Shown one piece after another: positions 2,117 through 19,385 of a DNA stretch of 49,404 bases. The stretch comes from Candidatus Woesearchaeota archaeon (GTDB lineage: Archaea; Nanobdellota; Nanobdellia; Woesearchaeales; GW2011-AR9). The notes under the pieces are model-generated. The model was not told where the DNA came from and made no database searches. It worked only from the letters and a program-made list of their open reading frames with translations. A program made the translations under genes and the position numbers. The stretch lies in contig JACPND010000036.1 in NCBI GenBank assembly GCA_016185625.1, positions 1 to 49,404 of the forward strand, written 5' to 3'. Every line of letters begins with the position of its first letter. Within the stretch, counting starts at the first letter, position 1.

Positions 2117-2948
2117 GGATCGCCTCCACCACGTATAAGCGCATCCAGGCCAAAAAGAGCAGGGCCGCCACGACATGAATGATGGATGACGCTAAGGATG
2201 AGGAAACAAGAGATCTCACCGGCCACAGGAGAAGAGTAAGCACGATGGCCGTCAGCAGCATCAATAGTGCTGCTTTCCAGAGTTTCTTCTGATGCAGGCG
2301 GACCAGATGAAATCCCTCGCCAATCGAATTCCAGGCTTTATATTTCTCTGTAAAGACATAATAGATTAAAAATATCCAGATGAAGAACACCAGCATCAAC
2401 AGGAAGGAAACAAGCGCATTCAGATTCTGCAGCACGGCGGTGAGCAGTTGGCTATGCCGGAAATAAAATGTCGGGCTAAGGGAGATCAGGCTCTTGAACA
2501 GAAAGCCAAAAAAAAGCTTAACGATTAAAAATAGGATCCCATACAGCAGAAGCGGAACAATGAGCGCCAGATTAAGCCCATTCCAGCGCCAATAGGTGCT
2601 TTTAGTCAATTTCTTTTCTCGTAACAGATTCCAGATCAATCCCTGCGACCAGGAATAGAAGAAAAGCGCAAACAACAGAAGCAGGATACTACCGGCAAAA
2701 GAGATTACGAAGAACCATTTCAAGTTAGCCATAAATGATGCTAATTGCTCCGGCTGATTCATCAATAACTGCTGTATTTCCTGCGGTGTTTGTCCCTGCA
2801 TCAAAGCGGCGGATTGCTCTTTGACGTATCCTCCAAACCAGGAGAAGATGATGGCAATTGAACCTACCAAAAGAAGATCTATCAGGAAAATCGTCCAGAA
2901 TTTCTCTCCAAGCCTGAATGAATGGAGATATTGGCGGAAGGCGGTCAT
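2103..2948 (-). CDS. Multi-pass membrane protein
   Basis: 281-aa ORF with several hydrophobic segments. Confidence 0.75.
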   Translation of the reverse strand: MTAFRQYLHSFRLGEKFWTIFLIDLLLVGSIAIIFSWFGGYVKEQSAALMQGQTPQEIQQLLMNQPEQLASFMANLKWFFVISFAGSILLLLFALFFYSWSQGLIWNLLREKKLTKSTYWRWNGLNLALIVPLLLYGILFLIVKLFFGFLFKSLISLSPTFYFRHSQLLTAVLQNLNALVSFLLMLVFFIWIFLIYYVFTEKYKAWNSIGEGFHLVRLHQKKLWKAALLMLLTAIVLTLLLWPVRSLVSSSLASSIIHVVAALLFLAWMRLYVVEAIHEPL

Positions 2949-2967
2949 AGGAAAGGGATCATTTTTT

Positions 2968-3125
2968 TAGTATAGCTAATGTGTCAAATATTCGAACATT
3001 ATTCTACACATTTGCTTACAAGAAATGAAGAAACTACTTCATTTCTGTACCAAAAATTGCTTATCAATTTTCGTGTATTAGTAATTGTGAACAAATGTTC
3101 GAAAATAATTCACAATTACTATAAA
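2968..3125. repeat. Hairpin-rich AT element with imperfect terminal inverted repeats (element E)
   Basis: TTCGAACATT...AATGTTCGAA arms; hairpin AGAAATGAAG-6nt-CTTCATTTCT (3021-3046); hairpin AAAATTG/CAATTTT; 12-bp IR AGTAATTGTGAA/TTCACAATTACT (3080-3091/3109-3120). Confidence 0.55.
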
Positions 3126-3293
3126 TAGCGGTTTGCCCCTAAACACTTTCACCTGTACTGCTGGCGGAAGCACATCAAAGACGCTGATGTCAATGCCAGA
3201 AAGCGGCGTTTGTCTTGACGTGCCCTGCGAACCGAACAAATACGCAGCCAGGATGTTTTTGTTTTTCTGCAGTTCTTTTGCGAAAGGGAACAT
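3078..3293 (-). pseudogene. Truncated MNT-type nucleotidyltransferase
   Basis: AAYLFGSQGTSRQTPLSGIDISV resembles the MNT motif GSxxxG..SDxD; reading frame runs into the hairpin element at its 3' end. Confidence 0.6.
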
Positions 3294-3407
3294 AGGCAGT
3301 GAGGGAGGAGTATTCTATATAAATATTTCTACCACCTCCTCGATAGTGGCGGCCATTAATTTTTGAACATGTATGGTCGGTTCCTTTTTGAGTTAAGGAA
3401 TTATACA

Positions 3408-3770
3408 CTACACCTTCCTTACCAGAAAACCATCGTTCGAAATAGGAAGAATTTTCACCGGCGTTCCTGGCTTTAAATGAATGTGCTCTGCCAACTCTGC
3501 CGGAATGCCTACCACCAAACTTCTTCCACTTATGGTAACCTTTCGTTGAAACCCAAAAGCATATTCTTTCAGTTCGTCTGTTCTCATTTCCATCTCTTTT
3601 GCTTGCTCTTCCGTAAAAAATAGTTGAGCACAAGTCTGGCATTTGTACCCCTGAACATGATGAAGCGGCAACCCTTCTTCAAATTCATATTGAGGAATGG
3701 AAACTAACCTCATTTCCTTATCGCATTTTGCGCACAAAATACCTTCCACATTTTCTTTTAATTTTGCCAT
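3408..3770 (-). CDS. YgiT-type zinc finger plus AbrB/SpoVT-type domain antitoxin
   Basis: CxxC...CxxC followed by RKVTISGRSLVVGIPAELAEHIHLKPGTPVKI (AbrB fold). Confidence 0.8.
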   Translation of the reverse strand: MAKLKENVEGILCAKCDKEMRLVSIPQYEFEEGLPLHHVQGYKCQTCAQLFFTEEQAKEMEMRTDELKEYAFGFQRKVTISGRSLVVGIPAELAEHIHLKPGTPVKILPISNDGFLVRKV

Positions 3771-4000
3771 GTTTTTTTCCTCCTTATCGGGTAGGCGGTA
3801 ATTACTTTTTCTTCTTCGTTTTCGTAGGCATAAATGATTACTATTTTCTTATCTTTAGCATCGAGTTCCTTGCCGTAGCGTAGTTCTCCTCTCACTACTT
3901 GTTTGATTATAAGCTTCCCGTATCTTAGACAATGCTCAACTTCTTCTTCGCTGAGATCACTATGCTCCATCTCATCTCGGGCATGAGCAGTGATAATCAT
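3758..4000 (-). CDS. DUF4258-type toxin
   Basis: HARDEMEHSDLSEEEVEHCLRYGKLI...KIVIIYAY; overlaps the antitoxin gene start. Confidence 0.75.
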   Translation of the reverse strand: MIITAHARDEMEHSDLSEEEVEHCLRYGKLIIKQVVRGELRYGKELDAKDKKIVIIYAYENEEEKVITAYPIRRKKTWQN

Positions 4001-4066
4001 GATAGTTCACTTACCAAGTAAGTGCTTTTCTTTATAAATATTTCTGAGAAGATTACCTTGAAACAA

Positions 4067-7000
4067 TTACCAATCCGTATTTCTTCCCACCTGCCCGGAG
4101 GACACTCTCACTGAGCCGCCGCTTCCGGGCTTGCCGGCATTCTTCCAGTTGACTTGTCCAACGGAAGAGATATCGGTATCGAAGCAGACATCAGGTATAG
4201 GATCTGACCCGAAGCCGAAAGTGGGTTGGGTATTCGGCGCCTGATTCCATTTAATGCAGGCCTTACTATATTCCTTGGGAGAATATTGAATGATCAAATC
4301 ACGGTCGCCTTCTCCATTCTTTAACTGGATTGGTCCGGCGGTATCGCCTTGGTAATTATAAATGGGGATAGAAGAACTGCCATCTTCGGGATAGAGAAGG
4401 ACGTTGAAAGAGACGGCCACGCCATTTTCATCGATGAGAGGCGTAAGCGTTTCATCTCTCGGGGCTGTCACTCCCCAAGTCACTTTATAGAAATAGGCTT
4501 GCTCTGGTGTCTCTGCTCCTCCTTTATAGCAGAATTGGTCTTCCCGGCATTGTAATTGGCGCGCACAGATGGATGGCTCTTCTGCTTCTTCATCGGGATT
4601 CTGCTCGCAGAGAGTAGGAGAAGGTTTTTCCGAGCGTTCAATCTGGATGCTCGCCACAGCCTGATACGTTCCGGAGACAGTTTTTATCATGCCGACACCT
4701 TCCGGCTCGATGTCGTAATGGCTTTCGCAAATCGTCGAAGGGAACCAGTTGCTGCCGAGGAGAGGGGCAAAGGACTCGTCTGATGTTCTCTTCCAGTCCT
4801 GATACCAGTTGAAGTCTTGAAACAGGAAATTGCTCAACGCTGGATAGGATTTGACGGACTGGGTGACGGCGTAGACAGTTTGAAGTCCGGCACGAGCACT
4901 CACTACCCAGCCTTGGGAGAGCGTGTAGACGTTTTGCACGTTTTCCTTCTGGCTTTCTGTACATCCAGCACAATCCTGCTTTACTGTCTTTACTGTCTTT
5001 TCTGTTTTATCCTGTTTAGGAGAAATAGTGGTGATGGTGAACTCTCCGGTATATTTACCCTGCGTATCTACGTTTGCCGTAATTATTTCTCGAGTGCCAT
5101 CTTTGGTTGTTTCCACCCCTTCAAAGTTTCCGGTGACAGCATTGAATAATTCGATTTCCTTGACTGTTCTCGTCGCTTCTGATCCTTCCAGATCAAATTT
5201 TTCAAGCTGTTGTCGGTTATCAGGCAGCGTACGTGTCCCTCCCGTCGCGACGAAGCAGCCATTTTTTTCTTTACAGCCACCTTTGCCGTTCTGGTAGTAG
5301 TCGCCTTCCCGCTCGCTCTTTTCCTTGGTTAATGTATTCGTGACAGTTTGTGTTAAGGTTTTGAAATTGGTGTTGGTGATTAAAGACTGAGATAGTTGAA
5401 GCTGGCCCAGAGGCTTATCTTTTTCTTTTTCCTCTTGAGTGGCATAGTAGGTCAGCCCTTTGGTGAGTGAACCCGCAGCCAACTCTTCACCAATATAGAT
5501 TACAGAGCCATCCACCTGTATCGTTTTTTGTTCTTTCTGAGACACACCTTGCCGCGCTAGTTCCACACTCCCCTGCCTGAAGACGGTCGTGGATTTCTCG
5601 TTGTCCGGTACTTTTTCCTCATCCACCACTTTTTCCAAATCATAGATAATCGTCGTCAGACCGGTCTTATCAGTATGGGAAGTTATTGACCCGCCAACAT
5701 TCAACGCGATTAGCGTCGTGCCGTCTTCTTCTTTATTAGATTCTCCCCAGTCAATTAGGTTTTTATAATTCTCATAGTCTTTCCCCAGAATCTGTTGTAC
5801 TTCATAAGAAAATTTTACTGATGGCCCCTTGATGGCGGCACTCTCTTGAGGAATCTGTGTTCCGCCAAGAGCAATTGGTTGGGGAATAATTTTTCCATCT
5901 GTACCAAAGCAGCCTTCACTGACAGTACAAGTACACTCTCTTTCTTGACATTGCCAGCCGGAAAGATATGGCGTGGGTGTAATTCTTTTTACATTTAATC
6001 CCTCCGCCCACTCATATCCTTCTTTCTTCTCAAAAACTCCAGATACTCCACTATATTGTATCCCCTCTACTTCATTCCCTTGCGAGTCCCAAAGCTTATC
6101 GTCGTCATACCAATAGATTCTCTTTTCCCTCACTTCAAATACAAAATCAGCCGTTGCTGACACTTCTCCCGGCCTTAACTTAGCAATGTCTGCGGCGTCA
6201 AGTTCTATATTCTTGTTTCCATCTTCCGAGAAAAGTTTTTGCTTTTTTGGATCGTAGAATACATTTTTGTCATTGAGTTGACCTACGAATTGAAGTGGAG
6301 AAGGTACGGGTGCCGTTGCTGCCACTTCTTCAACAGCTACTTCCAATTGTGTTTGCATCTCTTTTTCCTTTATACCATCAAGCTCAGATTCTAGTTCTAT
6401 TTTCTTCTGGTTCAGCTCGTCAATCTTTTGCTGCCTATCAAGACTTTCAAAAGCAGACTGCAAATCATCTGTCTCTGCTTCAACTTTCTTCACTTCTTCC
6501 TGGAGTGCATTCTTTTCCATTTGCTGCGCTACGGCAGAAACAGCACTCCCCAGTTGTTGTAACTTAGCCACGGTTGCTGCTTTCTGTACTTCCTCTCTCC
6601 CCTTCTTTTCCAAATCTAACTGAATATCTTCGAGTTCCTGCTGGGATTGGATTAGCTTCGCAAACTGCTCATTCTCGGCGTCTGTTCGTTTTTTTTGCTC
6701 TAGACTATCTATTACCGCTTTAGTGGTCGCGAGTGTTTTTTCCACGGCTTTTTTAGCTTTTTCTTGGTCTTCATCAAATTGTACCGCGGCTGCATTGAAT
6801 TCCGTTTCCGTTGCCAACAACTCTTCCAAGTCCTTTTGAGAAATTTCCTGCGGGACAGCCGCCGGCTTTTGAGCAGCTAATGCCTTCTGCATTGCTGTAT
6901 CATAACCCGATCCTGGTTCTGCTGCCTTTTTCAGTAGTGTTTGGTCAGAAACGTACTTGCCTTCAGCATCGAATAAGAGGCCTTGAGCATCAGTATAGAT

Positions 7001-8011
7001 ACTTTGTTTGTTGCCTTTTGAATCCAGAAATTCCCCCACAAAAAACGCATCATTGGCGGTATAGTCCTTTGGTTTTATTTTCTCAGGCGGTTTGCTTACA
7101 GCTTTTGGAAGTGGCATTGGTTTCTTTGCCTCGGCTGTTGGAGAAATTTCCTGCGGGACAGCCGCTGGCTTTTGAGCAGCTAATGCCTTCTGCATTGCTG
7201 TATCATAACCCGATCCTGGTTCTGCTACCGTTTTCAGTAGTGTTTTGTCAGAAACGTAATTGCCTTCAGCATCGTATAAGCGGCCTAGAACATCAGTATA
7301 GATAATTTGTTTGTTGCTTTTTGAATCTGTAAATTCTCCAACCAAATAAGCATCATTGGCGGTATAGTCCTTTGGTTTTATTTTCTCGGGTGCTGCTTTT
7401 GGAACCGGGGTTGGAGTTGCCACTTGTTGAGCCGGAGCTGCGGGAGGAGGCGCTCTTTTGGATTCTATCACTATCACTATTGGTTCAGGAAGATTTGTCA
7501 CATCACCCCACTGTTGTCCCTTATCATCAGGAATCTTAACTGTTTCAGGAAATTGCATAGGCCATTCCTCTAATGGTTTACCAGTAACTATTGTGTTTGT
7601 ATTTATGTCCAGTGTCCCTTTCCGTTCACCAACCTTTTCCATTCCAGAAATGGATTGTTTATATACCACTTGAGTATCGCCTTTTTTAGCGACCCAGTAA
7701 TAATTATCATTATTGTCTTTATAACTCTTCAACTGGCCTTGTGCTGTTACGACAGGATACGACTTACCGCTTTTTATTATCCTCACTTCTGTTAGCGTCA
7801 CTGCCTCAGCCGCTGCCTTCCCCGCCAACGCCCCCCGGTCAAACCATCCTTTTCCTGCCCTATTCTCCGGATTTCCCCACAAGAAACAGCTGATGGAACC
7901 CCAAAAGCCGGAACAAGATGATTTCTCTTCCGATTCAGCCTGAGCTACAGTCAAGAGAGGAGTAAGTAACAAAACAAGTACCAATACGCTCACTAACCTC
8001 TTTTTGCTCAT
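4067..8011 (-). CDS. Giant secreted protein (1314 aa) with coiled coil and ~101-aa tandem repeats
   Basis: Signal peptide plus CSGFWGSISCFLWGNPENRAGKGWFDRGALAGKA leader; long uninterrupted ORF. Confidence 0.9.
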   Translation of the reverse strand: MSKKRLVSVLVLVLLLTPLLTVAQAESEEKSSCSGFWGSISCFLWGNPENRAGKGWFDRGALAGKAAAEAVTLTEVRIIKSGKSYPVVTAQGQLKSYKDNNDNYYWVAKKGDTQVVYKQSISGMEKVGERKGTLDINTNTIVTGKPLEEWPMQFPETVKIPDDKGQQWGDVTNLPEPIVIVIESKRAPPPAAPAQQVATPTPVPKAAPEKIKPKDYTANDAYLVGEFTDSKSNKQIIYTDVLGRLYDAEGNYVSDKTLLKTVAEPGSGYDTAMQKALAAQKPAAVPQEISPTAEAKKPMPLPKAVSKPPEKIKPKDYTANDAFFVGEFLDSKGNKQSIYTDAQGLLFDAEGKYVSDQTLLKKAAEPGSGYDTAMQKALAAQKPAAVPQEISQKDLEELLATETEFNAAAVQFDEDQEKAKKAVEKTLATTKAVIDSLEQKKRTDAENEQFAKLIQSQQELEDIQLDLEKKGREEVQKAATVAKLQQLGSAVSAVAQQMEKNALQEEVKKVEAETDDLQSAFESLDRQQKIDELNQKKIELESELDGIKEKEMQTQLEVAVEEVAATAPVPSPLQFVGQLNDKNVFYDPKKQKLFSEDGNKNIELDAADIAKLRPGEVSATADFVFEVREKRIYWYDDDKLWDSQGNEVEGIQYSGVSGVFEKKEGYEWAEGLNVKRITPTPYLSGWQCQERECTCTVSEGCFGTDGKIIPQPIALGGTQIPQESAAIKGPSVKFSYEVQQILGKDYENYKNLIDWGESNKEEDGTTLIALNVGGSITSHTDKTGLTTIIYDLEKVVDEEKVPDNEKSTTVFRQGSVELARQGVSQKEQKTIQVDGSVIYIGEELAAGSLTKGLTYYATQEEKEKDKPLGQLQLSQSLITNTNFKTLTQTVTNTLTKEKSEREGDYYQNGKGGCKEKNGCFVATGGTRTLPDNRQQLEKFDLEGSEATRTVKEIELFNAVTGNFEGVETTKDGTREIITANVDTQGKYTGEFTITTISPKQDKTEKTVKTVKQDCAGCTESQKENVQNVYTLSQGWVVSARAGLQTVYAVTQSVKSYPALSNFLFQDFNWYQDWKRTSDESFAPLLGSNWFPSTICESHYDIEPEGVGMIKTVSGTYQAVASIQIERSEKPSPTLCEQNPDEEAEEPSICARQLQCREDQFCYKGGAETPEQAYFYKVTWGVTAPRDETLTPLIDENGVAVSFNVLLYPEDGSSSIPIYNYQGDTAGPIQLKNGEGDRDLIIQYSPKEYSKACIKWNQAPNTQPTFGFGSDPIPDVCFDTDISSVGQVNWKNAGKPGSGGSVRVSSGQVGRNTDW
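6838..7443 (-). repeat. Two tandem ~303-nt coding repeats in the giant protein
   Basis: KIKPKDYTANDA..VGEF.DSK.NKQ.IYTD..G.L.DAEG.YVSD.TLLK.AEPGSGYDTAMQKALAAQKPAAVPQEIS occurs twice; gagaaatttcctgcgggacagccgc at 6838 and 7141. Confidence 0.9.
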
Positions 8012-8039
8012 CTTTTCCTCTTAGGATATGAATTAGTAT

Positions 8040-9050
8040 TTAAATTAGTTTCCGTACTTCTTGGACTAATTCCTCTTTGGTGGGAAGACATAATTTATAT
8101 TTCGACGCAAAGATATGCTTATTATCTTCTGGAAGGGTATATCTAACGATTGCCTCTTTCTTGTCTGCACATAACAAAATGCCTAAAGTAGGATTCTCAT
8201 CTTGCTGTTTAACCTGCTGGTTGTAATAGTTAACGTACATTTGTAACTGGCCTAAATCCTGATGGGTTAATTTCCCCACTTTAATCTCTAAGATAACAAA
8301 GCATCGTAAGATTCTATTATTAAGAACCAAATCAAGATAGAAGTGTTCATCTTCTATGGTTATTCTCTGTTGTTGAGAAACAAACATAAATCCTTTCCCA
8401 AACTCTAAGAGAAAATCATTTAAATTGTTGATGATGGCTTCTTCTAAAGAGGTTTCAGTATATTTTTCAGAAGGCCCTACATTTAAAAATTCCAAAACAT
8501 AAGGGTCTTTAACAATATCTTCCGCTTTATTCACCATCTGGCCTTTCTCAGCAAGTTCGAGAACTCCTTTTTTGTCTTTACTTAAAGAGAGACGTTCAAA
8601 CAACATAGAATTAATTTGTCGATCTAATTCTCGTACGCTCCACTTCTCTTTATCCGCTTCCATTATATAAAATTGCCGAGCTTGCTTGTCTTCTACCCGC
8701 ATAAGTAGGCAGTAATGGTTCCACGACAATTTCCAAGACAGTGTCGCGGATTTTGGAAAAAGAAGATAGAATTTCCGCATTCTTTCCAGATTATCGCGGG
8801 AAAACCCTTTTCCGTATTTTCTCCCCAAATCCAAAGCTAGGGTATCCAGAAGTTGACTTCCATATGTCGCTTTTTCTTTTCCCTGTTGTTGAAATTCAAT
8901 GATGTATTTACCTATTTGCCAGTAGGCGGTAATAAGAGTTTGGTTTATGTGGGAATAAATCTTCTTTCTAGCTTCAATTAAAAGAGAGCCCACTGATTCT
9001 ATTAAATGCTGGTAAGTTTTAGATAAAATTACTCTGTTTTTTCTTTTCAT
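8040..9050 (-). CDS. DUF1016/YhcG-family PDDEXK nuclease-like protein (copy 1)
   Basis: N-terminal ...LIEARKKIYSHINQTLITAYWQIGKYI and C-terminal FYLDLVLNNRILRCFVILEIKVGKLTHQDLGQLQMYVNYY. Confidence 0.9.
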   Translation of the reverse strand: MKRKNRVILSKTYQHLIESVGSLLIEARKKIYSHINQTLITAYWQIGKYIIEFQQQGKEKATYGSQLLDTLALDLGRKYGKGFSRDNLERMRKFYLLFPKSATLSWKLSWNHYCLLMRVEDKQARQFYIMEADKEKWSVRELDRQINSMLFERLSLSKDKKGVLELAEKGQMVNKAEDIVKDPYVLEFLNVGPSEKYTETSLEEAIINNLNDFLLEFGKGFMFVSQQQRITIEDEHFYLDLVLNNRILRCFVILEIKVGKLTHQDLGQLQMYVNYYNQQVKQQDENPTLGILLCADKKEAIVRYTLPEDNKHIFASKYKLCLPTKEELVQEVRKLI

Positions 9051-9063
9051 TCTAAACCCCCTT

Positions 9064-9246
9064 TTACTTTCCCGCCGCTCCCCTTTCAAACCAGCCCTTC
9101 CCGGCTCTCGCTTCGGAACTGCCGAAGAAGAACTTCCCGACTTTGCACCAGAAACTGCACTCTTTAGTCTGCGTTTCTTCCTGTGCCAGAACAAAGAATG
9201 AACTAAGCAACACCAGAAGTACAAACATCACCATTGCTTTTTTCAT
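9064..9246 (-). CDS. Orphan secreted leader ORF L5
   Basis: MKKAMVMFVLLVLLSSFFVLAQEETQTKECSFWCKVGKFFFGSSEARAGKGWFERGAAGK*; homologous to the giant-protein N-terminus. Confidence 0.8.
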   Translation of the reverse strand: MKKAMVMFVLLVLLSSFFVLAQEETQTKECSFWCKVGKFFFGSSEARAGKGWFERGAAGK

Positions 9247-9247
9247 A

Positions 9248-9889
9248 TTATACCCTCGCAATCCAAAGGTCGGTTCTTTTATACTGAACGTTCGTATCTT
9301 TAAGCAATTTTGTGAATATTCCTGCCCTCCTAAATGGGACTATAATCACAGCCATACCCGCCTTCCAGCCATTATACTTTTGTACTAGGCCAATACTTTT
9401 TGAAGTATATTTCTTCCTTTTATATTCTTTTTCTGTCATGTGACCATAGAGGATTCTCGTAAGCCTGGTTCTCATTCCCTGAGGACAGTTAGTCGTATCA
9501 TACTGGATGAGCGAATATGGTTCTAATCGTAATTTTCCAGCTTGCACTTCCAGCCGCGTTCCATATAACACAATTCCTTCTTTCATGACATTTTCAATAA
9601 AATTAGGGTCTAAGCCAGAAAATTGCCTGTCGGTTAAGATGCTTTGAATAGTTAGATTATATTTTCTTCCTATTTTCATCAGAATTTGATTTAATTCTTT
9701 CTTTGCTCCTTTTTTCTCCAGAACAAGTAAAATATCAAGGTCTGACCGCGAGTCTGCTTCCCCCCTGGCAACGGAACCAAAGAGGATAATGGCGACCACG
9801 CTTTCGATAGTAGAAAGCTCCTGGGCTAACTCAAACACGATTTCACGAAATTTGGCCGGAATCATTTTCTTAGTATTAGTATTACGCAT
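9248..9889 (-). CDS. MNT nucleotidyltransferase (HEPN partner)
   Basis: VVAIILFGSVARGEADSRSDLDILLVL. Confidence 0.9.
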   Translation of the reverse strand: MRNTNTKKMIPAKFREIVFELAQELSTIESVVAIILFGSVARGEADSRSDLDILLVLEKKGAKKELNQILMKIGRKYNLTIQSILTDRQFSGLDPNFIENVMKEGIVLYGTRLEVQAGKLRLEPYSLIQYDTTNCPQGMRTRLTRILYGHMTEKEYKRKKYTSKSIGLVQKYNGWKAGMAVIIVPFRRAGIFTKLLKDTNVQYKRTDLWIARV

Positions 9890-10267
9890 TTATAATATTT
9901 GTGCTTTTCGTAGTATTGGCAAACAAAAAGATTCTATCTGCTGAAAGAGTTGCTGTGCGGCCAATGATCGTTCACCATTTATTTTTCCGCCATAGAGCTG
10001 CCCCGGCCGGATTTGGTTTTCCAGCTCTTGAAATTTTTGCCAGATTTCTTTCGTATTTTCACCGAAGATAGTTTTATTCTCTTCGAGGTATTGACGAACA
10101 AGTTGGTGTTTATTGATATGTATCCTCTGTAAGGCCAAGCAAGATTCGATAATGTGAAAACTCGCTTCAAACGAAGCCTCAATTCTCGTCATTGGAGAAT
10201 TGTCTTGATTATTCGCATCTTTTTTGAAGAGCTTGTATTTCTCTACATGAATCTCTAAGGAGGACAT
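9890..10267 (-). CDS. HEPN-like protein
   Basis: Small helical protein directly upstream of the MNT gene; typical MNT/HEPN arrangement. Confidence 0.65.
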   Translation of the reverse strand: MSSLEIHVEKYKLFKKDANNQDNSPMTRIEASFEASFHIIESCLALQRIHINKHQLVRQYLEENKTIFGENTKEIWQKFQELENQIRPGQLYGGKINGERSLAAQQLFQQIESFCLPILRKAQIL

Positions 10268-10271
10268 AAAA

Positions 10272-10451
10272 CTAATTCACCCCTGCATTTTTATCAAACC
10301 ATCCTTTTCCTGCCCTATTCTCCGGATTTCCCCACAAGAAACAGCTGATGGAACCCCAAAAGCCGGAACATTCGTTTTCATTATCTTGAGCCAGAGTTAA
10401 AGGAGATAAGACTAATAAAAACAGTACAAACACGCTCACCGCTTTTTTCAT
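10272..10451 (-). CDS. Orphan secreted leader ORF L4 (not in supplied ORF track)
   Basis: Manual translation: MKKAVSVFVLFLLVLSPLTLAQDNENECSGFWGSISCFLWGNPENRAGKGWFDKNAGVN*. Confidence 0.8.
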   Translation of the reverse strand: MKKAVSVFVLFLLVLSPLTLAQDNENECSGFWGSISCFLWGNPENRAGKGWFDKNAGVN

Positions 10452-10867
10452 TTTAACAATTTTAATAATAATTGAATAATTGCTTCAAAGCTTTTATAAT
10501 TTTCCTTATGATAATCATAGGCAACCCTTTCACCGTAATACTCTAGTCTATTTCTTAAATAGCTCATTTGTTGAATTACGTTAACTTCGGCATCATGTCC
10601 ATATTTTTTGTTGAAAAAAGTAAACAAGCATTGATGGTTTTTTGAGCGCATTCCTTGTTTGAGCATTAAAGCAACAAGTAATTCTTTAATGATTTCGTAG
10701 TAATTGTCAAAGATAAAGCTAACATTTTTTTCATCAGCTTTAAGACTCTTTACAAAATCCAACCTTTCTAACGCCATCTCAATAATCGAATTGATTTTCT
10801 CAGTATCAACACTAACTCGGCGAATAAATTTTTCTTCACATTCCGGCCAAGACATTAATTCGTTCAT
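10448..10867 (-). CDS. HEPN-like protein
   Basis: Helical 139-aa protein with YLRNRLEYYGERVAYDYH; ATGA overlap with the upstream wHTH-MNT gene. Confidence 0.7.
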   Translation of the reverse strand: MNELMSWPECEEKFIRRVSVDTEKINSIIEMALERLDFVKSLKADEKNVSFIFDNYYEIIKELLVALMLKQGMRSKNHQCLFTFFNKKYGHDAEVNVIQQMSYLRNRLEYYGERVAYDYHKENYKSFEAIIQLLLKLLK

Positions 10868-11391
10868 TTTATCGTAAAATACCCCTGTAGCTTAATTCCG
10901 TTAACCACATTGTTGAGTAAATGGGTGGGTAGTTTGGTAATTTTAGGTTTGGTAAATAATTGTATTTTGTGGCCTAGTGATCTTTCAAACATGGTTAAGT
11001 CAAGTTTCTTTTCCCTGGCACATTCAACAAAAAAGTCTATATCGCTTTCTTTTACCGATTCGCCTTTCCTAAAACTGCCAAATAAAATTATGGCAGAAGC
11101 AGCCAGTTCTTTTTCTAAGTAATCAATGAGGCCGGTATCAGCCATTCTTTTAATATAATAGTTTGTTTTCTGAAAACGATTATGCCAATTATCAATCCAC
11201 TGGTTATTTTTAGATACAATATTTTCCACTTTAAGTTTTTGTAACTGATATTGGACTGTTGACCTGCTCAAGCCGGTCTTTGCAGCTAATTCTCTCACCG
11301 TAAATCTGCCAAGAGGATTAACATAAAAAAATTCTAGTAGTCCATCTTTTTTGGACTTAAGTCCAATATCTTTAGACAATTTTTTAACCAT
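10864..11391 (-). CDS. wHTH plus MNT nucleotidyltransferase
   Basis: FTVRELAAKTGLSRSTVQYQLQKLK (wHTH) then AIILFGSFRKGESVKESDIDFFV (MNT). Confidence 0.9.
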   Translation of the reverse strand: MVKKLSKDIGLKSKKDGLLEFFYVNPLGRFTVRELAAKTGLSRSTVQYQLQKLKVENIVSKNNQWIDNWHNRFQKTNYYIKRMADTGLIDYLEKELAASAIILFGSFRKGESVKESDIDFFVECAREKKLDLTMFERSLGHKIQLFTKPKITKLPTHLLNNVVNGIKLQGYFTIK

Positions 11392-11392
11392 T

Positions 11393-11575
11393 TCACGCCA
11401 GCGCCCTTCTCTCAAACCAGCCTTTCCCAGCCCGTGCTTCTGAACTGCCCCACAAGAAACAGCTGATGGAACCCCAAAAGCCGGTACAGGAAACAGAAGT
11501 AACTTCCTCCGCTAACGTAATCGTACTCATAACTACCAAGAACGCCATTAGTACCGCTATCAGCCTCTTTTTCAT
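11393..11575 (-). CDS. Orphan secreted leader ORF L3 (mosaic)
   Basis: MKKRLIAVLMAFLVVMSTITLAEEVTSVSCTGFWGSISCFLWGSSEARAGKGWFERRALA*. Confidence 0.8.
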   Translation of the reverse strand: MKKRLIAVLMAFLVVMSTITLAEEVTSVSCTGFWGSISCFLWGSSEARAGKGWFERRALA

Positions 11576-11602
11576 GGGATAAGCACAGTAATATCTCCTC
11601 AT

Positions 11603-12607
11603 TTAAATTAGTTTCTTTATCTCCCGTTCTAATTCTTCTTTGGAAGGCAAATAAAGCTTGTACTTGGAAACAAACAATTGATTAGAGATTCCGCCTAAAG
11701 CATATTCTACAAAAAAGTTATTCTTCTCCGCAGCGAGGATTATACCTATTGGCTCTCCATCACCCACGCTCGTCTCTTCCTTCTTAAAATAATTAAGATA
11801 CAGGTTCATCTGTCCGATGTCGTTATGGTCTACTTTCCCCATCTTTAAATCAATTAAAACAAAGCACTTCAGTATCCTGTGATAGAATACCAAATCCACA
11901 TAAAAATGCTGCTGGTTTAAAGTTATCCTATACTGACGTGCAACAAAAGTAAATCCTTTTCCTAACTCTAGCAGAAACATCTGCAAGTTATCTATTATTT
12001 TTTGCTCAAATTCTTTTTCTGTAAGATCGAGCCCTGGAGGCACGCCTAAGAATTCAAGCACATAAGGATCCTTGACCACGTCCTTTGGAGAAGAAACAGA
12101 TTGACCGCCAGTCGACAGAGCCAGAACTTTACGCTTATCCTTGCTTAGCGCCAACCGCTCAAAAAGCATAGAATTAATCTGCCGAGATAATTCCCGGACG
12201 CTCCATTTTTCATCTATGCATTGTTTCTCGTAAAAGCTCCTCGCCAGGTCGTCAGATACATTTAGTAATTCGCAATAATGCGACCAGCTCAATTTTCCAG
12301 ACGCTGTCTGGATTTTTGGATATTTAATGAAAAACAGCCTCATTAAATAAGTATTGCTCCTGCTAAACCCTTTTCCATGACGAAGCCTTAAATCTTGGGA
12401 TATTTTATCTAATAGTTTACTCCCATACTCTGCTTTTTCTTTTCCTTTCTGTTCATATTCCACAATAATCTTTCCGATTTCCCAGTAAGCCTTGACTAAA
12501 GTTTGATTTGCGCGATAGTATACTTCTGTCCTAGCCTTTTCTAATATCACTCCTACGGAATCGAGAAATACACGGTAATCGGTATTTTTTTTAATGATAG
12601 GGTTCAT
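11603..12607 (-). CDS. DUF1016/YhcG-family PDDEXK nuclease-like protein (copy 2)
   Basis: FYVDLVFYHRILKCFVLIDLKMGKVDHNDIGQMNLYLNYF; paralogous to 8040..9050. Confidence 0.9.
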   Translation of the reverse strand: MNPIIKKNTDYRVFLDSVGVILEKARTEVYYRANQTLVKAYWEIGKIIVEYEQKGKEKAEYGSKLLDKISQDLRLRHGKGFSRSNTYLMRLFFIKYPKIQTASGKLSWSHYCELLNVSDDLARSFYEKQCIDEKWSVRELSRQINSMLFERLALSKDKRKVLALSTGGQSVSSPKDVVKDPYVLEFLGVPPGLDLTEKEFEQKIIDNLQMFLLELGKGFTFVARQYRITLNQQHFYVDLVFYHRILKCFVLIDLKMGKVDHNDIGQMNLYLNYFKKEETSVGDGEPIGIILAAEKNNFFVEYALGGISNQLFVSKYKLYLPSKEELEREIKKLI

Positions 12608-12609
12608 TT

Positions 12610-12804
12610 TTAGTTTCCCGTCGCCTTCCCCGCCAATGCCCCGCGGTCAAACCAACTCTTGCCGGCTCTTGCTTCGGAACTGCTGAAGAAGAACTTCCCG
12701 GCCTTGCACCAGAAACCACATTCTTTTGCGGTCTCTTCCTGCGCCAGAACAAAGATAGAACTAAGCAAAACCAACAGTACCAATACCCCCAGCATCTTTC
12801 TCAT
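12610..12804 (-). CDS. Orphan secreted leader ORF L2
   Basis: MRKMLGVLVLLVLLSSIFVLAQEETAKECGFWCKAGKFFFSSSEARAGKSWFDRGALAGKATGN*. Confidence 0.8.
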   Translation of the reverse strand: MRKMLGVLVLLVLLSSIFVLAQEETAKECGFWCKAGKFFFSSSEARAGKSWFDRGALAGKATGN

Positions 12805-13307
12805 CTGATAAACTCTTTATAATTCTCTCTTAAATATAAGATTAACTCCCTTTTAGTTCTTGGCAGTTTTGCTTTCAATTTTAACTCCAAAAACTGAAAA
12901 CATAGCTCTACAAAATCATGGGTGGAATTAAAAGCGTCAATCACCTCCTTTTCTTCAAACTCTTTAAGATGTATTCTGCCATGTTTATCCACTCCATAAC
13001 GAGAAGTGATATAAAAATTTTCCAAAATACTCACTCTAATCATTAGCTTTTCAAAAGATTTTCTTAGATTACCAGAACTGGGGACAATCATCTTTTGCAG
13101 AAAATCCGCGTACTTATGCTCATCAGCTAACACCATCGCCAGTAAAGATAAGCAGGCCTTACTGGCCTTTTCACTAGCCTGTTGGGAATGGAATATGACG
13201 AGGCTAAACATCTTTTTTTCTAACAGCATCTCCGCAGCCAGTACATCATCTACTGCATCAATAAGGTAACGTATAGCCTGACCCTCATTGAGCGATTTTC
13301 CAGCCAA
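12801..13307 (-). CDS. HEPN domain protein
   Basis: AIRYLIDAVDDVLAAEMLLEKKMFSLVIFHSQQASEKASKA is a HEPN N-terminus. Confidence 0.85.
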   Translation of the reverse strand: MAGKSLNEGQAIRYLIDAVDDVLAAEMLLEKKMFSLVIFHSQQASEKASKACLSLLAMVLADEHKYADFLQKMIVPSSGNLRKSFEKLMIRVSILENFYITSRYGVDKHGRIHLKEFEEKEVIDAFNSTHDFVELCFQFLELKLKAKLPRTKRELILYLRENYKEFIR

Positions 13308-13680
13308 TGTTTACACCTCCTTTTGTTAAGACTTGTACTTTTCCTGCCTGTTCCTTAAACTGCAAAGAATAGTCTTTCCCATAAATCAATCTATGCTTTT
13401 TACCAATCTCATACAAAAAAGGCGAGGCATAATTTAAATCGTCTTCTTCCATAAAAACAATATCTACTGGCTTGTCCAGCTTAGGCATTAATTCTGTTTT
13501 AATTTTTCCGGCAATTTTCCAGTCTTCTGCCATCTTCTTTGCAGTGAGAATGAGAAGGTCATAATCATTGGCCTTTTTAAGCGATTTCACTGCGCTGCCG
13601 AATAAGATGATGGCTTTAAGATTATGCGGACTTACTTGTCTTTTTATCTCCTCTTCGATAAAGTTTAAAGGTGAAACCAT
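13285..13680 (-). CDS. MNT nucleotidyltransferase
   Basis: LKAIILFGSAVKSLKKANDYDLLIL; overlaps the HEPN gene. Confidence 0.85.
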   Translation of the reverse strand: MVSPLNFIEEEIKRQVSPHNLKAIILFGSAVKSLKKANDYDLLILTAKKMAEDWKIAGKIKTELMPKLDKPVDIVFMEEDDLNYASPFLYEIGKKHRLIYGKDYSLQFKEQAGKVQVLTKGGVNIGWKIAQ

Positions 13681-13681
13681 G

Positions 13682-13864
13682 TTAACCCACCACTGCTCCC
13701 CGGTCGAACCAGCTCTTGCCGGCTCTCGCTTCGGAACTGCTGAAGAAGAACTTCCCGGCCTTGCACCAGAAACCGCGCTCGCCGGTCTGCGTTTCTTCCT
13801 GTGCCACAGCAAAGATAGAACTAAGCAAGACGACAAGTAAAAGCAGACCTAATATTTTCCTCAT
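13682..13864 (-). CDS. Orphan secreted leader ORF L1
   Basis: MRKILGLLLLVVLLSSIFAVAQEETQTGERGFWCKAGKFFFSSSEARAGKSWFDRGAVVG*; ATGA overlap with the upstream 1051-aa gene. Confidence 0.8.
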   Translation of the reverse strand: MRKILGLLLLVVLLSSIFAVAQEETQTGERGFWCKAGKFFFSSSEARAGKSWFDRGAVVG

Positions 13865-16800
13865 TTTAGCACGCTATCACAATATTGCAATCCTCCTGAT
13901 TCAAAATCGGCTTTCACCGTGGTGATAAGATTGGCGATCTGTTCCAGATAATCAACCCAACTCCAGATATAAGTGCTGTAGGAACAAAATGACGCTGCCT
14001 GCCCGGAGACGGGACAAGCCAGCCCGCAGTAAGCTATATTCACTGTATGAACCAAGGCAATTGGATCCTTCCAGGCATCTCCCAGAGCCCGGATAGTTGA
14101 ATCCCAAAACTGCGAAAACGGAAAAATGTACCATAATTCACCGACGAAATACTTACAGGTCAACAATCCTTCCAGCTCGTTGCAGCCGGAAACAGTGGTC
14201 AATCCCGCTTTCACTTCATTTTGCAGGCAATAGATCTTTCTACATTTGATTTGACGATATTTATCTAAATTCTTCACGATGCCCGGCACGCAGAGCGTCG
14301 CCATGGACAAATACAAATTCTGTCTCACGTCCCGCCCTGGCTTGAACTGTCCTTCCACCGCTCCTAATGGACTAGTTGGGCTTTTCAAAATTTCCAGATT
14401 ATACATTGACAGCACGGTTTCCTGCCATTTTCCATACCACCCTAATTTTTCGGGAGTGGGGCGGCAGGATAACACTTGAATAGGCACATCAATCCAACCC
14501 ACGCGAGTATCGAGGTTTTTTTCAACAGTAGTCAATCCGAAGCACTCTGCAACCGATAGAGCCTGTCCGCCAGGGAGCGGCTTAAAAGCGTCTGTGGCTG
14601 TCTTTGCTGAACTCACTAAAGATATCGCTCCCGTCACCAAATGCACCGCCTGCACGCCATAATCAACCCACACCAATATTTTCTGCATCGTTCCGATGGC
14701 TCCCCACAATCCCGTCTCCACCGCCTCTTTCTCCTTCTTAATCAACTCCTCTAAATTCTCATCCTGCGCCCCCAAGGTTGAAAATCCAAAAGGAACTTTT
14801 ATCATAACCTCCTGATTCTCAATGCCCTGCACCACTTTCTTTCCCGCCTGAGAACTGATTTTCAGTGAGCATTTATATTTGATTTCCCTCGTCGTAAACA
14901 CGTCCGTCTGCTTGATACCAAATAATTCCCGTCCATTAAACGGCTCAAACTCGAGGATGATTTTTGGCTTGGGCAGACTCTCTCCTGCCGTACTCACACC
15001 GCCATATAACAGGCTCCTGCTCAGCACCGGCGCATTCTCATCCTCAGAAGTGCAATCGCCTGCCAATCCCATCTCCAGCACTTTCACCTCATCCGTAGCC
15101 GGTTTTAACTTCACTTCTATCGGAATGCGCGCTTTGGCCAGCTGCGTCACATCTAAATCCACAAACAGAACCAACGGCGTCACTTTCGCCACGCCCCAGA
15201 AATCAGGATTCGCTTCCTCCTCCACACCCAGCAACTCAACATTATACTTCCCTCTCTCGCCGGACTTCACATTCCTCGGTGATACTGTCCATACGCCTGC
15301 ATTTCCTGCTGTATCAGACACCCGTATCTCCAGCGGCACCAAACTATCGTATCCGCTTTTCACCGCAGGCGTTTCCAGCACGCAATTCCAAGCCGCTTCC
15401 TTCTTCTCACAAGCCTCTTCCGTAAATTCGATCCAACCCGCAGGAACATCCCCTGTTTCCAGATACAACTGTTCCGCGTCCATCACCAATTCACGTGCAT
15501 CCAGCAGCATCCGCAATCCACTAAACTCTTCCACTCTCAACTCCACATGAAAAACATCCTTGCTCTGGAAATAATTATGTTTCGCACCAGAAGTCACACC
15601 GTACAATTCCACGCCGGCAATTTTCGGAGCCGTATTATCCGCCTGTACTTCTATAGTCTCCAATTTACCCTCATTACCGACGTTATCTTCCAATTGTGCG
15701 ATGGTCACGCGAGCTGTATCCTGCGAGCCAAATCCTTTGCTCACTTTCCAGCGGCACTCAAACGCCTCGCCATCGTGCTCACAGGCATCCGGCTTCTGCG
15801 CGGTGCTTCCTCCGACTTCACCCAAATCCAGTTTCACATGATTTTCATCAATACCGGCGCCCACTTCTTTCACCCGCAGCACAAACACATTATCGCCATC
15901 TTTCACAAAACTCTGTTCCCCGTAATTCCGCTGCGTCCCAAAATACTCCGTCTCCGGGGCGGCACTATCCTTAGTAAACGAAGGAGGAGTGATGGTCTTC
16001 ACTTCTTCATTGCCTGCATCGTCAACTGCCGTAAAGGTAATGGAGATGCTTTCCGCCGGCTGGAATTTCACTTTTTCCCAAGTACAGGAATAGACGTTCA
16101 GCGTTCCGGTGAGAGCGCATTTCCCCGGCACATCCTTCATTGCTCCCTGTTCCGAACTCGCCAGAACCTCTTTCAGCGCGTGCTCCGTCACATTAATCGT
16201 AACATCACTTTCCGCTTCAAAACTGCCGATGAATTTCCCAAAATCCACCAATGACAGACTATTTTCCTGAATACTTGGCTTCACAAAATCAAGTGTCAGC
16301 GCCAGCGGATTGCTCGTCGCGCTATGCCCGAATCTATCCTCTGCGCGGATTTTAAACGACCGCGTTCCTTCTCCGGAAACACTCGCTTTTAATATTCCCG
16401 CAGACTCGCTCTCTGCAAAATTATAACTGCATTGCTCAGTTCCCGGCTCAGTTCCAAAACTAGAAATCGTTTGCAGCACCTCATTACTGCCAGCGTCCAC
16501 AATCTCTATCTTCTGCAGTCCCACACAGGGCGTTCCTTCTTCAACCGTAAAACTCATCCTTACTTTTTCTTTCTCCTGGATCACGCTCTCCAGATTCACC
16601 GTAGGAGCATCGCCATCAACATGAATCGCTGTGCTATCTGAAACTCCTCCGGGAACATAACTCACCTCAAATGTATACGAGCCTGATTTCACACCATTGC
16701 TCAATGGACTGACGTATTCGCAGCTCACGCCAAACGCTTCCGCACCGGAACAGGAATTAAATTGAACCTCATTAGTCCCGATCGTAATCTTCATCTCTTC

Positions 16801-17016
16801 CGGGTTCACTGTCTCCACGGCAGATACCTGTGCCTGCACTGTCCAGACATCGCCTGCGCCGTCAATAAAATTCTCGATGCCAACTTTCCCGGTATTTTTC
16901 GTGATCTGCACCGACGCCGCAGAAACATCCACCGAATACAGTGGAAGACCCACTACCAAAGCAATAATCCACAGTGCCTGCATCTTTCTCCAGTTCAAGT
17001 TCATGTTCCACTTCAT
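13861..17016 (-). CDS. Large secreted protein with Ig-like/bacterial-adhesin-like repeats and Cys-rich C-terminal region
   Basis: 1051-aa ORF with signal peptide and repeated beta-domain motifs (DxxGNxG...). Confidence 0.85.
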   Translation of the reverse strand: MKWNMNLNWRKMQALWIIALVVGLPLYSVDVSAASVQITKNTGKVGIENFIDGAGDVWTVQAQVSAVETVNPEEMKITIGTNEVQFNSCSGAEAFGVSCEYVSPLSNGVKSGSYTFEVSYVPGGVSDSTAIHVDGDAPTVNLESVIQEKEKVRMSFTVEEGTPCVGLQKIEIVDAGSNEVLQTISSFGTEPGTEQCSYNFAESESAGILKASVSGEGTRSFKIRAEDRFGHSATSNPLALTLDFVKPSIQENSLSLVDFGKFIGSFEAESDVTINVTEHALKEVLASSEQGAMKDVPGKCALTGTLNVYSCTWEKVKFQPAESISITFTAVDDAGNEEVKTITPPSFTKDSAAPETEYFGTQRNYGEQSFVKDGDNVFVLRVKEVGAGIDENHVKLDLGEVGGSTAQKPDACEHDGEAFECRWKVSKGFGSQDTARVTIAQLEDNVGNEGKLETIEVQADNTAPKIAGVELYGVTSGAKHNYFQSKDVFHVELRVEEFSGLRMLLDARELVMDAEQLYLETGDVPAGWIEFTEEACEKKEAAWNCVLETPAVKSGYDSLVPLEIRVSDTAGNAGVWTVSPRNVKSGERGKYNVELLGVEEEANPDFWGVAKVTPLVLFVDLDVTQLAKARIPIEVKLKPATDEVKVLEMGLAGDCTSEDENAPVLSRSLLYGGVSTAGESLPKPKIILEFEPFNGRELFGIKQTDVFTTREIKYKCSLKISSQAGKKVVQGIENQEVMIKVPFGFSTLGAQDENLEELIKKEKEAVETGLWGAIGTMQKILVWVDYGVQAVHLVTGAISLVSSAKTATDAFKPLPGGQALSVAECFGLTTVEKNLDTRVGWIDVPIQVLSCRPTPEKLGWYGKWQETVLSMYNLEILKSPTSPLGAVEGQFKPGRDVRQNLYLSMATLCVPGIVKNLDKYRQIKCRKIYCLQNEVKAGLTTVSGCNELEGLLTCKYFVGELWYIFPFSQFWDSTIRALGDAWKDPIALVHTVNIAYCGLACPVSGQAASFCSYSTYIWSWVDYLEQIANLITTVKADFESGGLQYCDSVLK

Positions 17017-19385
17017 GTAAAGCTTGGCTCCAATTCTTTTCGCACTTGTTGAGACAGATTGCCTAACTGCCCCATCACCTGCAGATCTTCCAGCACCCGT
17101 TGATCGGCAGGCACATTCTTCTCATCAAATCCTAACACATAAAACGTGATTTTATCTGATCCATAGAGCTGCTCAGGTGTTATTTTCACATAAGTCTTGG
17201 GCGTATCCCAGCTCACCTGCCCCACTAACAGCGAATCTAACACCTGCTCCTGAAATGTAAAGCAGCAGCCATCAACATCAAAACAGGCCACCGCTTCCGT
17301 AATCCCGCTGGTGCAGCGTTCTCCTTTGGGAATCGCCACTGGTTCTGTACTCGTCACCAGACCTGTCACTTCATACAGTCCGGGGACTAATTGCACTTCC
17401 GCCTCCGCCTTTCCTTTCAGCTGCGCACTCGCCATTAGCTCATCACCTAAGACAAATGGATTCAGATCGCCTACCCGCCGCAGCATAATAGTCGCATCTT
17501 CCTTCTCATTCAGATTTTGGACGCTATTTGAAAAAACCCAGCGATGTTTCTCCTTCAGTATCGTGGGGGTATAAGAATATAATTCCTCGCCGCCAAATAA
17601 TCCCTGCGTCGTGCATTTCACACCAACACATTTCTCCAGATTTTTCTTTTTCACGTCCACTTTAATAGTTCTCAGTTTATGCATCTCCATGACCTTCTCT
17701 GTCCATCCCGCAACGGCATAGCCAATAACTCCTGGCGTTTCTTTATAATGATAGGTATCCAGCGGATAAAAATTCGTCAAATATTCGGCTTTCACGACGC
17801 TTCCCACCCCGCCATAGACAGCTGGATATTTCACCGCCAGCCCGCCATGAGCATCGGTCAATCCCATCACGCAGTCGCCCTGCTCCGGAACAGAAAAGCC
17901 GATCTGCACCGCTTCTAACGGCTCTTTGGTAAAGCTGTCTACCACCACGGTCTTTATCAATTCCGTGTTCCGCTTGTCGCAGACCATGCTCTTTCCCAGG
18001 GCGACAATCGGCGGCGGCAGGACCTCTCCCGAACGGGGAATCTCATTGTTGCGGATAGTGGCTTCCAGCGCAAACAGAAACGTAAAGCCTTCCCCTTTCA
18101 ACGCTGCGGGATCACGGATGGTAATCAGCACCGGATAGCTCAGATCGTAGGTCGTGTAATAATGCTGCGTCGCGAACTGCAGTGCATAATAATTCACCGG
18201 CGTAGAACTCGGGCCAATCTGTCCGCTTTTGTCATTCGCATCAAAATAAAGCTCCCAGCCGAAATAATCAAAACTCACTTCTAATCCGGATCCTTTCTCC
18301 AGAGGGATAATAGTATTATCATAATTCTTCTGATGCAGATCACTCAGTTCCGCAACCGCACCTTTTCGATAATCAAAGCGATAAAAATCCCTGCTGGCCA
18401 AATACCGTAATACCGGAACATACGACACTAATAAGCCTTTCATACGTTCTTTAATCTCCGCTTCACTCCAATACACTGTCGGAATCAAATCAAATGTCAT
18501 CGCTTCCATCGGCGGCAGCTTGTCCACTGCCACACCGCCGTAACTGGAGATCAAGTCCAAAGCCTGCCGCTCGATAAAACTGGCAGTGCGTTCTACGTCG
18601 GCTAACTCAGCTGCTGTCTCATAATATTTCTTCAACTCCAGCGGCACTTTAACATAAAACTGTTCCATCTTTTGTTCAGCTGTTCCTCGCCTTGCGGTCA
18701 GCGGCATCTCCAGCCAGAAATTCACGGTATTATCACCGATGATAACCTGCACTTCCCTCCCTCCTATCTCTTCACTTTGCTCAGGCAGCTCTACGGTAAA
18801 TCCCTGTTGCGTAAAGGGAGCATACTCCTGCAGGCAGTCCGCGAGCTTCTCTTCCACGAATCGTGAAAGCTGCGCTTCAATGCTCAGGACGGGATCTTCC
18901 TTGTTGTAGAGCTTCGGCTGCAAGGTCGCAAACTGCACCACCAGCTCAGCATTTGGTTTCACATTATAATGCCAATATGGCACTTTCAATGGTTCCAGAT
19001 TAAGGCCGTCTGCGTCGGTGGGATTGGTTGCAGAATACGTGCCCACTAACTCTGGATAAAGATAGCCGCCCTGTTGGCCGAGAATATGCAGGCCTTTGAT
19101 GCCCACCTGGGAAAGGCAATTCTCAGTGTACGTCTGAATGGGCTGGAATTCCTGCGGTACTTGGGCAATGACTGGTTCGCCTTCGGCGGTTACTTTCTCT
19201 TTCACCACTTTTTTCGTGACGTAGGTTACGCCGGCAAACGTAAACAGAATGACGATGCCAATAATAATGAAGATAGTTACCTGTCCTTTTCTGTCAAGTC
19301 CTTTCCTAGTGGATCTTTTTCTGCCGATGGGGTTATCAAAATTCCTAAAACTAGTACTATCTCCGCGCCTCTTTTGTACGTCCAT
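17013..19385 (-). CDS. Large surface protein with class III (pilin-like) N-terminus
   Basis: DRKGQVTIFIIIGIVILFTFAGVTYV: charged K-G followed by a hydrophobic helix; overlaps the next gene by 4 nt. Confidence 0.85.
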   Translation of the reverse strand: MDVQKRRGDSTSFRNFDNPIGRKRSTRKGLDRKGQVTIFIIIGIVILFTFAGVTYVTKKVVKEKVTAEGEPVIAQVPQEFQPIQTYTENCLSQVGIKGLHILGQQGGYLYPELVGTYSATNPTDADGLNLEPLKVPYWHYNVKPNAELVVQFATLQPKLYNKEDPVLSIEAQLSRFVEEKLADCLQEYAPFTQQGFTVELPEQSEEIGGREVQVIIGDNTVNFWLEMPLTARRGTAEQKMEQFYVKVPLELKKYYETAAELADVERTASFIERQALDLISSYGGVAVDKLPPMEAMTFDLIPTVYWSEAEIKERMKGLLVSYVPVLRYLASRDFYRFDYRKGAVAELSDLHQKNYDNTIIPLEKGSGLEVSFDYFGWELYFDANDKSGQIGPSSTPVNYYALQFATQHYYTTYDLSYPVLITIRDPAALKGEGFTFLFALEATIRNNEIPRSGEVLPPPIVALGKSMVCDKRNTELIKTVVVDSFTKEPLEAVQIGFSVPEQGDCVMGLTDAHGGLAVKYPAVYGGVGSVVKAEYLTNFYPLDTYHYKETPGVIGYAVAGWTEKVMEMHKLRTIKVDVKKKNLEKCVGVKCTTQGLFGGEELYSYTPTILKEKHRWVFSNSVQNLNEKEDATIMLRRVGDLNPFVLGDELMASAQLKGKAEAEVQLVPGLYEVTGLVTSTEPVAIPKGERCTSGITEAVACFDVDGCCFTFQEQVLDSLLVGQVSWDTPKTYVKITPEQLYGSDKITFYVLGFDEKNVPADQRVLEDLQVMGQLGNLSQQVRKELEPSFT

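Follow-up and report, generated by a model that had tools for sequence, protein, structure and literature searches.

Toxin-antitoxin and nuclease modules separated by copies of a surface-protein gene's 5' end in an operon of Woesearchaeota

DPANN archaea have small genomes and carry little CRISPR or restriction-modification (PMC12988326), and how they gather and exchange defence and toxin-antitoxin (TA) genes is an open question. The question takes a particular form in a stretch of 49,404 nucleotides (nt), here called the window, at positions 1 to 49,404 of contig JACPND010000036.1 of a Candidatus Woesearchaeota archaeon (assembly GCA_016185625.1). In one operon of the window, six copies of a short secreted leader separate five TA or nuclease modules, and the last copy is the N-terminus of a large secreted protein, here called the giant. 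Why are such genes interleaved with copies of the 5' end of the gene that lies downstream of them? The reading favoured here, held at a probability of about two in three, is that the junction between a conserved gene, A1, and the giant is a TA and defence-gene hotspot of one Woesearchaeota family, with a predicted defence role, and that its modules may duplicate and exchange by homologous recombination via the repeated copies of the giant's 5' end.

The array and its leaders

All genes of the array lie on the minus strand, and translation of that strand agreed with the original prediction in module order, strand and boundaries and in the presence of six leaders in one operon. The left flank is formed by A2 (17013-19445), a secreted, pilin-like protein of about 800 amino acids (aa) with a GQVTIFIIIG motif that aligns with seven relatives at 45-58% identity, and the immediate upstream flank is A1 (13861-17016), a 1051-aa secreted protein whose homologues adjoin A2. 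These are followed by leader L1 (13682-13864), an antitoxin-like MNT nucleotidyltransferase (13285-13680; Pfam Polbeta 6.4e-11) and a toxin-like HEPN protein (12801-13307; Pfam HEPN 1.5e-12); by L2 (12610-12804) and a first DUF1016/YhcG PD-(D/E)XK nuclease (11603-12607; Pfam 1.7e-57, PADLOC PDC-S02 3.2e-137); by L3 (11393-11575), a fusion of a winged helix-turn-helix domain with an MNT (wHTH-MNT; 10864-11391; Pfam HTH_24 3.1e-8 and Polbeta 4.4e-8, PADLOC PDC-M05A 1.5e-9) and its HEPN-like partner (10448-10867; PADLOC PDC-M05B 8.4e-5, weak); by L4 (10272-10451), a 125-aa protein (9890-10267) and its partner MNT (9248-9889; Pfam Polbeta 3.4e-11, PADLOC PDC-S09 5.3e-17); and by L5 (9064-9246) and a second DUF1016/YhcG nuclease (8040-9050; Pfam 2.5e-54, PADLOC 2.3e-137). 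L6 (7820-8011) is the N-terminus of the 1314-aa giant (4067-8011), in which no Pfam domain was found. The conserved membrane-protein gene MEM280 (2103-2948), which comes after the giant in many family genomes, is the right flank.

Both nucleases consist of DUF1016_N and YhcG_C by Pfam, and three MNTs are recognised in the array (Polbeta/NTP_transf_2). In type VII TA systems, a HEPN RNase is neutralised through AMPylation by its MNT partner. The layout of these systems, adjacent HEPN and MNT genes, is present at 13285-13680 with 12801-13307, both by Pfam; in the two other pairs the MNT is found by Pfam and the HEPN partner is supported weakly by PADLOC. All three partners had been labelled HEPN in advance. 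The label is firm for 12801-13307 alone, is weak for 10867-10448, and is unproven for 10267-9890 because that protein has no Pfam match and a PDC-M05B match of E 0.0064 alone.

The five leaders other than L6, called orphans, have their stops 1, 2, 1, 4 and 13 nt ahead of the following start codon, within the 1-13 nt foreseen, and ATGA overlaps are found where they had been placed, at 13861 (A1 with L1), 12801 and 10448. A programmed frameshift fusing leader to module was considered and rejected, since these distances are irregular and a start of its own, with a ribosome-binding-like stretch, is seen in most modules. At 13285-13836 and 8040-9224, the module frames continue without a stop across the leader upstream of them, in a second frame, and mechanical calls of open reading frames (ORFs) therefore give long spurious N-terminal extensions.

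A leader search of the 1.16-Mb genome gave six matches (E 3.8e-36 to 4.7e-7), all inside the window operon, and the repetition is not due to chance. As copied in the orphans, the 5' end of the giant gene comprises the signal peptide and about 35 codons. Two types were distinguished: type A (L1, L2 and L5; FWCKAGKFFFSSSEARAGK) and type B (L4 and L6), with L3 mixing type B with other material. Therefore, the proposed identity of the leader and the giant's N-terminus does not hold for every orphan. An assembly artefact is unlikely, as the sequences of the leader copies are not the same and many independent metagenome-assembled genomes (MAGs) show the arrangement.

Recurrence across the family

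Related loci were compared in 49 species genomes, one genome per species. A scan of genome contigs succeeded with A2, and one with A1 alone gave no match. Records of such loci that carry a name belong to Woesearchaeota or to unassigned Nanoarchaeota/archaeon MAGs. A2 is present in 44 of the 49 genomes, A1 homologues stand beside it in nearly all assessable ones, and in about 30 a single large secreted protein has the leader as its N-terminus. The constant frame consists of A2 (about 800 aa, with a pilin-like N-terminus), A1 (about 1,100 aa), the giant (600-1,900 aa) and MEM280. At the A1-giant junction, orphan leaders are found in 14 species from 12 genera (the window, G006, G008, G010, G012, G016, G020, G027, G030, G033, G036, G038, G039 and G041; probably also G005). 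The junction is empty in about 13 genomes (G002, G009, G014, G015, G018, G021, G023, G024, G028, G029, G037, G042 and G043) and holds modules without orphan leaders in about 10 (G001, G003, G013, G017, G026, G032, G040, G047 and G048; probably also G045 and G022, where contig or gene calls are incomplete). The locus thus has what defines a core defence hotspot (cDHS), conserved flanks (A2-A1 and giant-MEM280) around variable defence or TA content, here empty, single or multiple. Neighbouring species differ in junction content within genera g17, g24, g27 and g30, and in the last three of these empty and filled junctions are mixed. Mapped onto the A1 tree, the presence of orphans takes at least 5 changes, and many shuffles (43 of 500) are just as clustered.

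When the neighbours of the leader are tabulated in related genomes, as the original prediction had suggested, the linkage recurs at the same A1-giant site in 13 other species, which refutes a one-off duplication. A fixed order with fixed partners is likewise refuted, as genomes differ in cargo order and partners and those with orphans are scattered over the A1 tree. The recurrent cargo consists of DUF1016, wHTH-MNT with its HEPN-like partner, HEPN-MNT, HEPNb-MNT and a Schlafen AlbA_2/HATPase protein (E 5.6e-24); a protein with PIN-like motifs but no Pfam match and, in G005, ORF6N were also observed. In PADLOC, DUF1016 is PDC-S02, and the MNT and HEPN proteins resemble PDC-M05. The wHTH-MNT/HEPN-like pair is kept in G036, G006, G001, G008, G012 and G041. 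DUF1016 is frequent at the junction: of its 38 matches in the family, about a dozen are in the hotspot, which makes up roughly 1% of each genome. The window genome holds 34 MNT matches and four DUF1016 matches, two of which lie in the array and two elsewhere without a leader. Because the same cargo families occur elsewhere in the genome without it, the link to the leader is positional and not cargo-specific. In G002 (locus L129), a DUF1016 fragment, HEPNb and MNT sit between A2 and A1 and not at the A1-giant junction; therefore, the whole A2-A1-giant trio appears to attract modules.

An ancient array, with all modules and leaders already in the family ancestor and later lost differentially, would agree with the recurrence of the same module families (DUF1016, wHTH-MNT/HEPN, AlbA2, PIN) and with the saturated synonymous divergence of most shared modules. 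The mixture of empty and filled junctions within genera, the scatter of the orphan state and a conflict between DUF1016 relations and the A1 tree argue against it, and it is considered very improbable.

Mosaic leaders and probable exchange of modules

The leaders themselves carry traces of recombination. In a max-chi-square test with codon permutation, identity breaks at p<0.01 were found in 24 of 85 within-genome leader pairs, which are not mutually independent, compared to 6 of 120 between-giant control pairs. Window L4 and L6 have a synonymous divergence (pS) of 0.72 in the signal half and 0.16 in the core, about 77 nt of the core of L4 being identical to that of the giant; the corresponding values are 0.49 and 0.00 in G016 and 0.61 and 0.05 in G038. 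Trio tests gave near-perfect switches at p 5e-5 for window L3 (p<=5e-5), G012 11462, G030 3498 and G033 3075, and p 2.5e-4 for G020 13692, values that are somewhat optimistic because the trios were picked after the best matches were known. L3 joins a G020-like signal half to a window core half. G012 11462 has the signal of its giant followed by the core of L10271, and G030 3498 has the signal of its giant followed by the core of L4304, the first orphan; the latter is the expected product if unequal crossing-over within the leader has doubled the leader-MNT-HEPN unit. An independent test case is G041 (contig C6, locus L208), where the N-terminus of the giant has a different signal without the GFW core and the orphans, copying the local giant, carry that same signal. 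Leader copies within a genome thus recombine with one another, and their halves differ in history.

Modules with their leaders are also found as tandem units: AlbA2 three times in G020 and twice in G033, and MNT-HEPN twice in G030. Tandem duplication of the giant, with upstream copies truncated to leaders by independent module insertions, has a precedent of sorts in G033 contig C156 (locus L053), where two full-length leader-bearing giants (2599-5766 and 7184-9625; 1055 and 813 aa) stand in tandem with a module between them, and in the second leader-bearing giant of G040 and G042. However, the orphans end at nearly the same place, no remnants of the giant's body were recognised, leader-module units duplicate as units in G020 and G030, and the five window orphans would need five independent precise truncations. 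Degenerate paralogues are therefore judged quite unlikely. The highest identity between giants of different genera is 82%, possibly G033 versus G035. In G020 contig C5 (locus L038, about 2200-6350) the giant seems to be fragmented, its own leader being truncated behind the signal; the array of this genome is among the longest of the relatives despite the apparently broken giant.

The composition of the unit is indicated by the order of modules and leaders. Nearly every module is followed by a leader (5 of 5 in the window, 3 of 3 in G012, 4 of 4 in G010, 4 of 4 in G006 and 3 of 3 in G039), whereas the first one is often directly adjacent to A1, without a preceding leader. Since, in addition, the signal half of L3 travels with the DUF1016 gene upstream of it, the natural unit is probably the module plus the following leader, the reverse of the leader plus the module behind it that had been assumed.

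Orphans begin at or near the preceding stop codon and end at the next start. A Shine-Dalgarno-like match of at least 4 nt is found at 27 of 35 cargo starts behind a leader, compared to a background of 26% and 11 of 41 leader starts, and a translational role of the leader, as ribosome-binding site or in stop-start coupling, is likely. It had also been suggested that each orphan is a secreted peptide functionally coupled to its module. Selection for the activity of a peptide of about 35 aa, as a signal, envelope stress sensor or regulator of the next module, would account for the intact start, signal peptide and stop of most orphan ORFs, their tight spacing to the next gene and the protein-level constraint on the core (pooled pN/pS, the nonsynonymous to synonymous ratio, of 0.3-0.4 within genomes). 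This constraint can, however, be inherited by conversion from the leader of the giant, the same module families occur without leaders elsewhere and at the junction of about 10 species, and the G041 orphans lack the GFW core. In addition, relics are found that retain the signal only (G006, G010 and G033), the core only (G036 and G005) or an internal deletion (G039). Given this decay, the copying of the local giant's 5' end and the absence of leaders from the same cargo elsewhere, the orphans look like recombination anchors or scars, and a dedicated peptide function is unlikely. Their most likely role is that of homology anchor and translation bridge.

Exchange between species is suggested by the first DUF1016 gene. 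It is 85-86% identical in aa to a hotspot copy in G020, which belongs to another genus (pS 0.65), whereas A1 is 37% and A2 38-47% identical between the same genomes (pS of A2 0.75; of the backbone 0.75-0.76). The DNA similarity extends past the DUF1016 stop, covers the signal half of the leader behind it and ends at the core; the best matches of the L3 signal are G020 leaders, the top one standing behind the sister DUF1016, and those of the L3 core are in the window. For 10 of 11 hotspot DUF1016 copies the best match is another hotspot copy, mostly from another genus, and the eleventh matches best a G041 copy that is also at the hotspot. In the DUF1016 tree, in which the G041 copy was counted as outside before it was placed in the hotspot, the hotspot copies group together, though not as one clade: 6 changes are needed, where shuffles average 9.6 and only 7 of 500 need so few. 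The second window DUF1016 belongs to another hotspot lineage, with G010 and G012. A recent transfer of the first DUF1016 from G020 was weakened to an old exchange by comparison with Rrp41 and pS.

These observations are combined in the favoured recombination model. Each resident module precedes a copy of the giant's 5' end, and these direct repeats would serve as homology anchors. Recombination inside the leaders may duplicate or replace a module and, after transfer from cell to cell, may join modules common to the hotspots of other species to the resident array, leaving chimeric leaders. Orphan leaders would persist because the operon stays translatable: they start at the previous stop, end before the next start, and their G-rich 3' end offers a ribosome-binding-like stretch, the peptides themselves probably being dispensable. 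The suggestion that the leader is a recombination anchor is supported in this way by mosaic leaders, tandem units (G020, G030 and G033) and a signal half common across genera together with its upstream cargo.

Several points weigh against this model. The anchor model alone does not generate the first orphan leader, which may have arisen by tandem duplication of a module plus leader or by integration of a circularised one. In several genomes, two or more modules are present that no leader separates. The DUF1016 copies of the window and G020 diverged long ago, their pS being near saturation, so that differential retention keeps a small probability. The leader halves are short, each partner assignment resting on 36-58 informative sites, and the ribosome-binding signal may be incidental because leader 3' ends are inherently G-rich. 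Finally, most of the genomes are fragmented MAGs, with 6% contamination in G036 and in G033, and one G036 contig is nearly identical to G002.

Comparison with known systems and neighbouring genes

In an integron-like system, the leader would be a site at which a trans-acting integrase captures cassettes. TA cassettes are common in chromosomal integron arrays. The co-oriented cargo-plus-repeat units of these arrays (PMC1382264) resemble the present one, in which there is one repeat per module and no mobility genes were recognised inside. Unlike integrons, the repeat here is a protein-coding leader, and comparisons of giants between genomes gave a pS of 0.67 in the signal and 0.80 in the core; no DNA-level conservation of the core was found, and between genomes the leader is constrained only as protein. 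Judged by these saturated synonymous sites, an attC-type conserved DNA site is lacking, and a site-specific recombination site in the leader was rejected for the same reason. Break positions also vary along the leader, and the chimeras resemble ordinary crossover or conversion. None of the genes examined near the array was recognised as an integrase, the rest of the genome not having been searched for one or for a recombinase private to array-bearing genomes. Together these results make the integron-like reading highly doubtful and point to homologous recombination rather than a dedicated recombinase.

In surface-antigen switching loci of the Mycoplasma vsa/vpma type, the conserved 5' leader of a surface-protein gene is also a recombination segment. 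There, a site-specific recombinase swaps the leader onto alternative surface-protein bodies (PMC2268961, PMC5634654), whereas unrelated TA and nuclease genes stand behind the leaders here. Several surface-protein bodies under one leader were not found, two leader-bearing giants occurring only in a few genomes (G033, G040 and G042).

The orphan modules of contact-dependent growth inhibition (CDI) and Rhs systems likewise combine a large surface-protein gene and arrayed orphan toxin cassettes, for which recombination via a stretch homologous to the main gene has been proposed (PMC3150448). Those cassettes are alternative C-termini downstream of the surface protein (PMC3150448). In the present array, the repeat is a 5' end and the cargo is upstream, unrelated to the surface protein and probably cytoplasmic; the modules (DUF1016, MNT/HEPN, AlbA2 and PIN-like) show no homology to a C-terminal part of the giant, which has no such Pfam domain.

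The Pseudomonas aeruginosa cDHS share with this locus a variable defence content between conserved core flanks, many occupants of unknown function and content common to distant isolates, as far as the passages of PMC10250203 considered here describe them. The same passages present cDHS as sites where varied mobile elements land and mention no repeat between systems (PMC10250203); the Woesearchaeota family instead has single genes or pairs in a co-oriented operon, separated by 5' copies of the downstream gene. Repeat-anchored cassette change and defence hotspots are thus already known (PMC10250203, PMC3150448, PMC1382264). No description of a TA or nuclease array delimited by 5' copies of a downstream surface gene was found in the open-licence literature, in line with the original prediction, which knew of no such TA or defence locus.

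Tentatively, and at somewhat less than even odds, the locus may be an integrase-independent archaeal cassette platform, in which 5' copies of a surface gene have two roles: as homology handles they would allow TA and defence modules to be duplicated, shuffled and exchanged between species, and they would also supply built-in starts for translation. If so, the leader of an ordinary gene would have taken on the part that a recombination site plays for cassettes. The modules may serve in defence or addiction. The locus offers a syntenic place across one family for following module gain, loss and shuffling, and repeat-anchored homologous recombination in a surface operon would be a simple mechanism, testable with strain-resolved metagenomes. 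It also opens a mining route for new defence genes, namely whatever sits between one leader copy and the next.

Other genes of interest lie on both sides of the operon. Directly downstream of the giant, a further small TA-like pair (3408-4000, minus strand) consists of a MazE/AbrB-type antitoxin (PF04014 2e-5) and a DUF4258 protein (4.3e-12), and is followed by a truncated MNT fragment (3078-3293). Upstream of the operon, an AAA_14/DUF4143 ATPase gene (19820-21040, minus strand) and a PIN-domain gene (21999-22394, plus strand; 2e-8) were observed.

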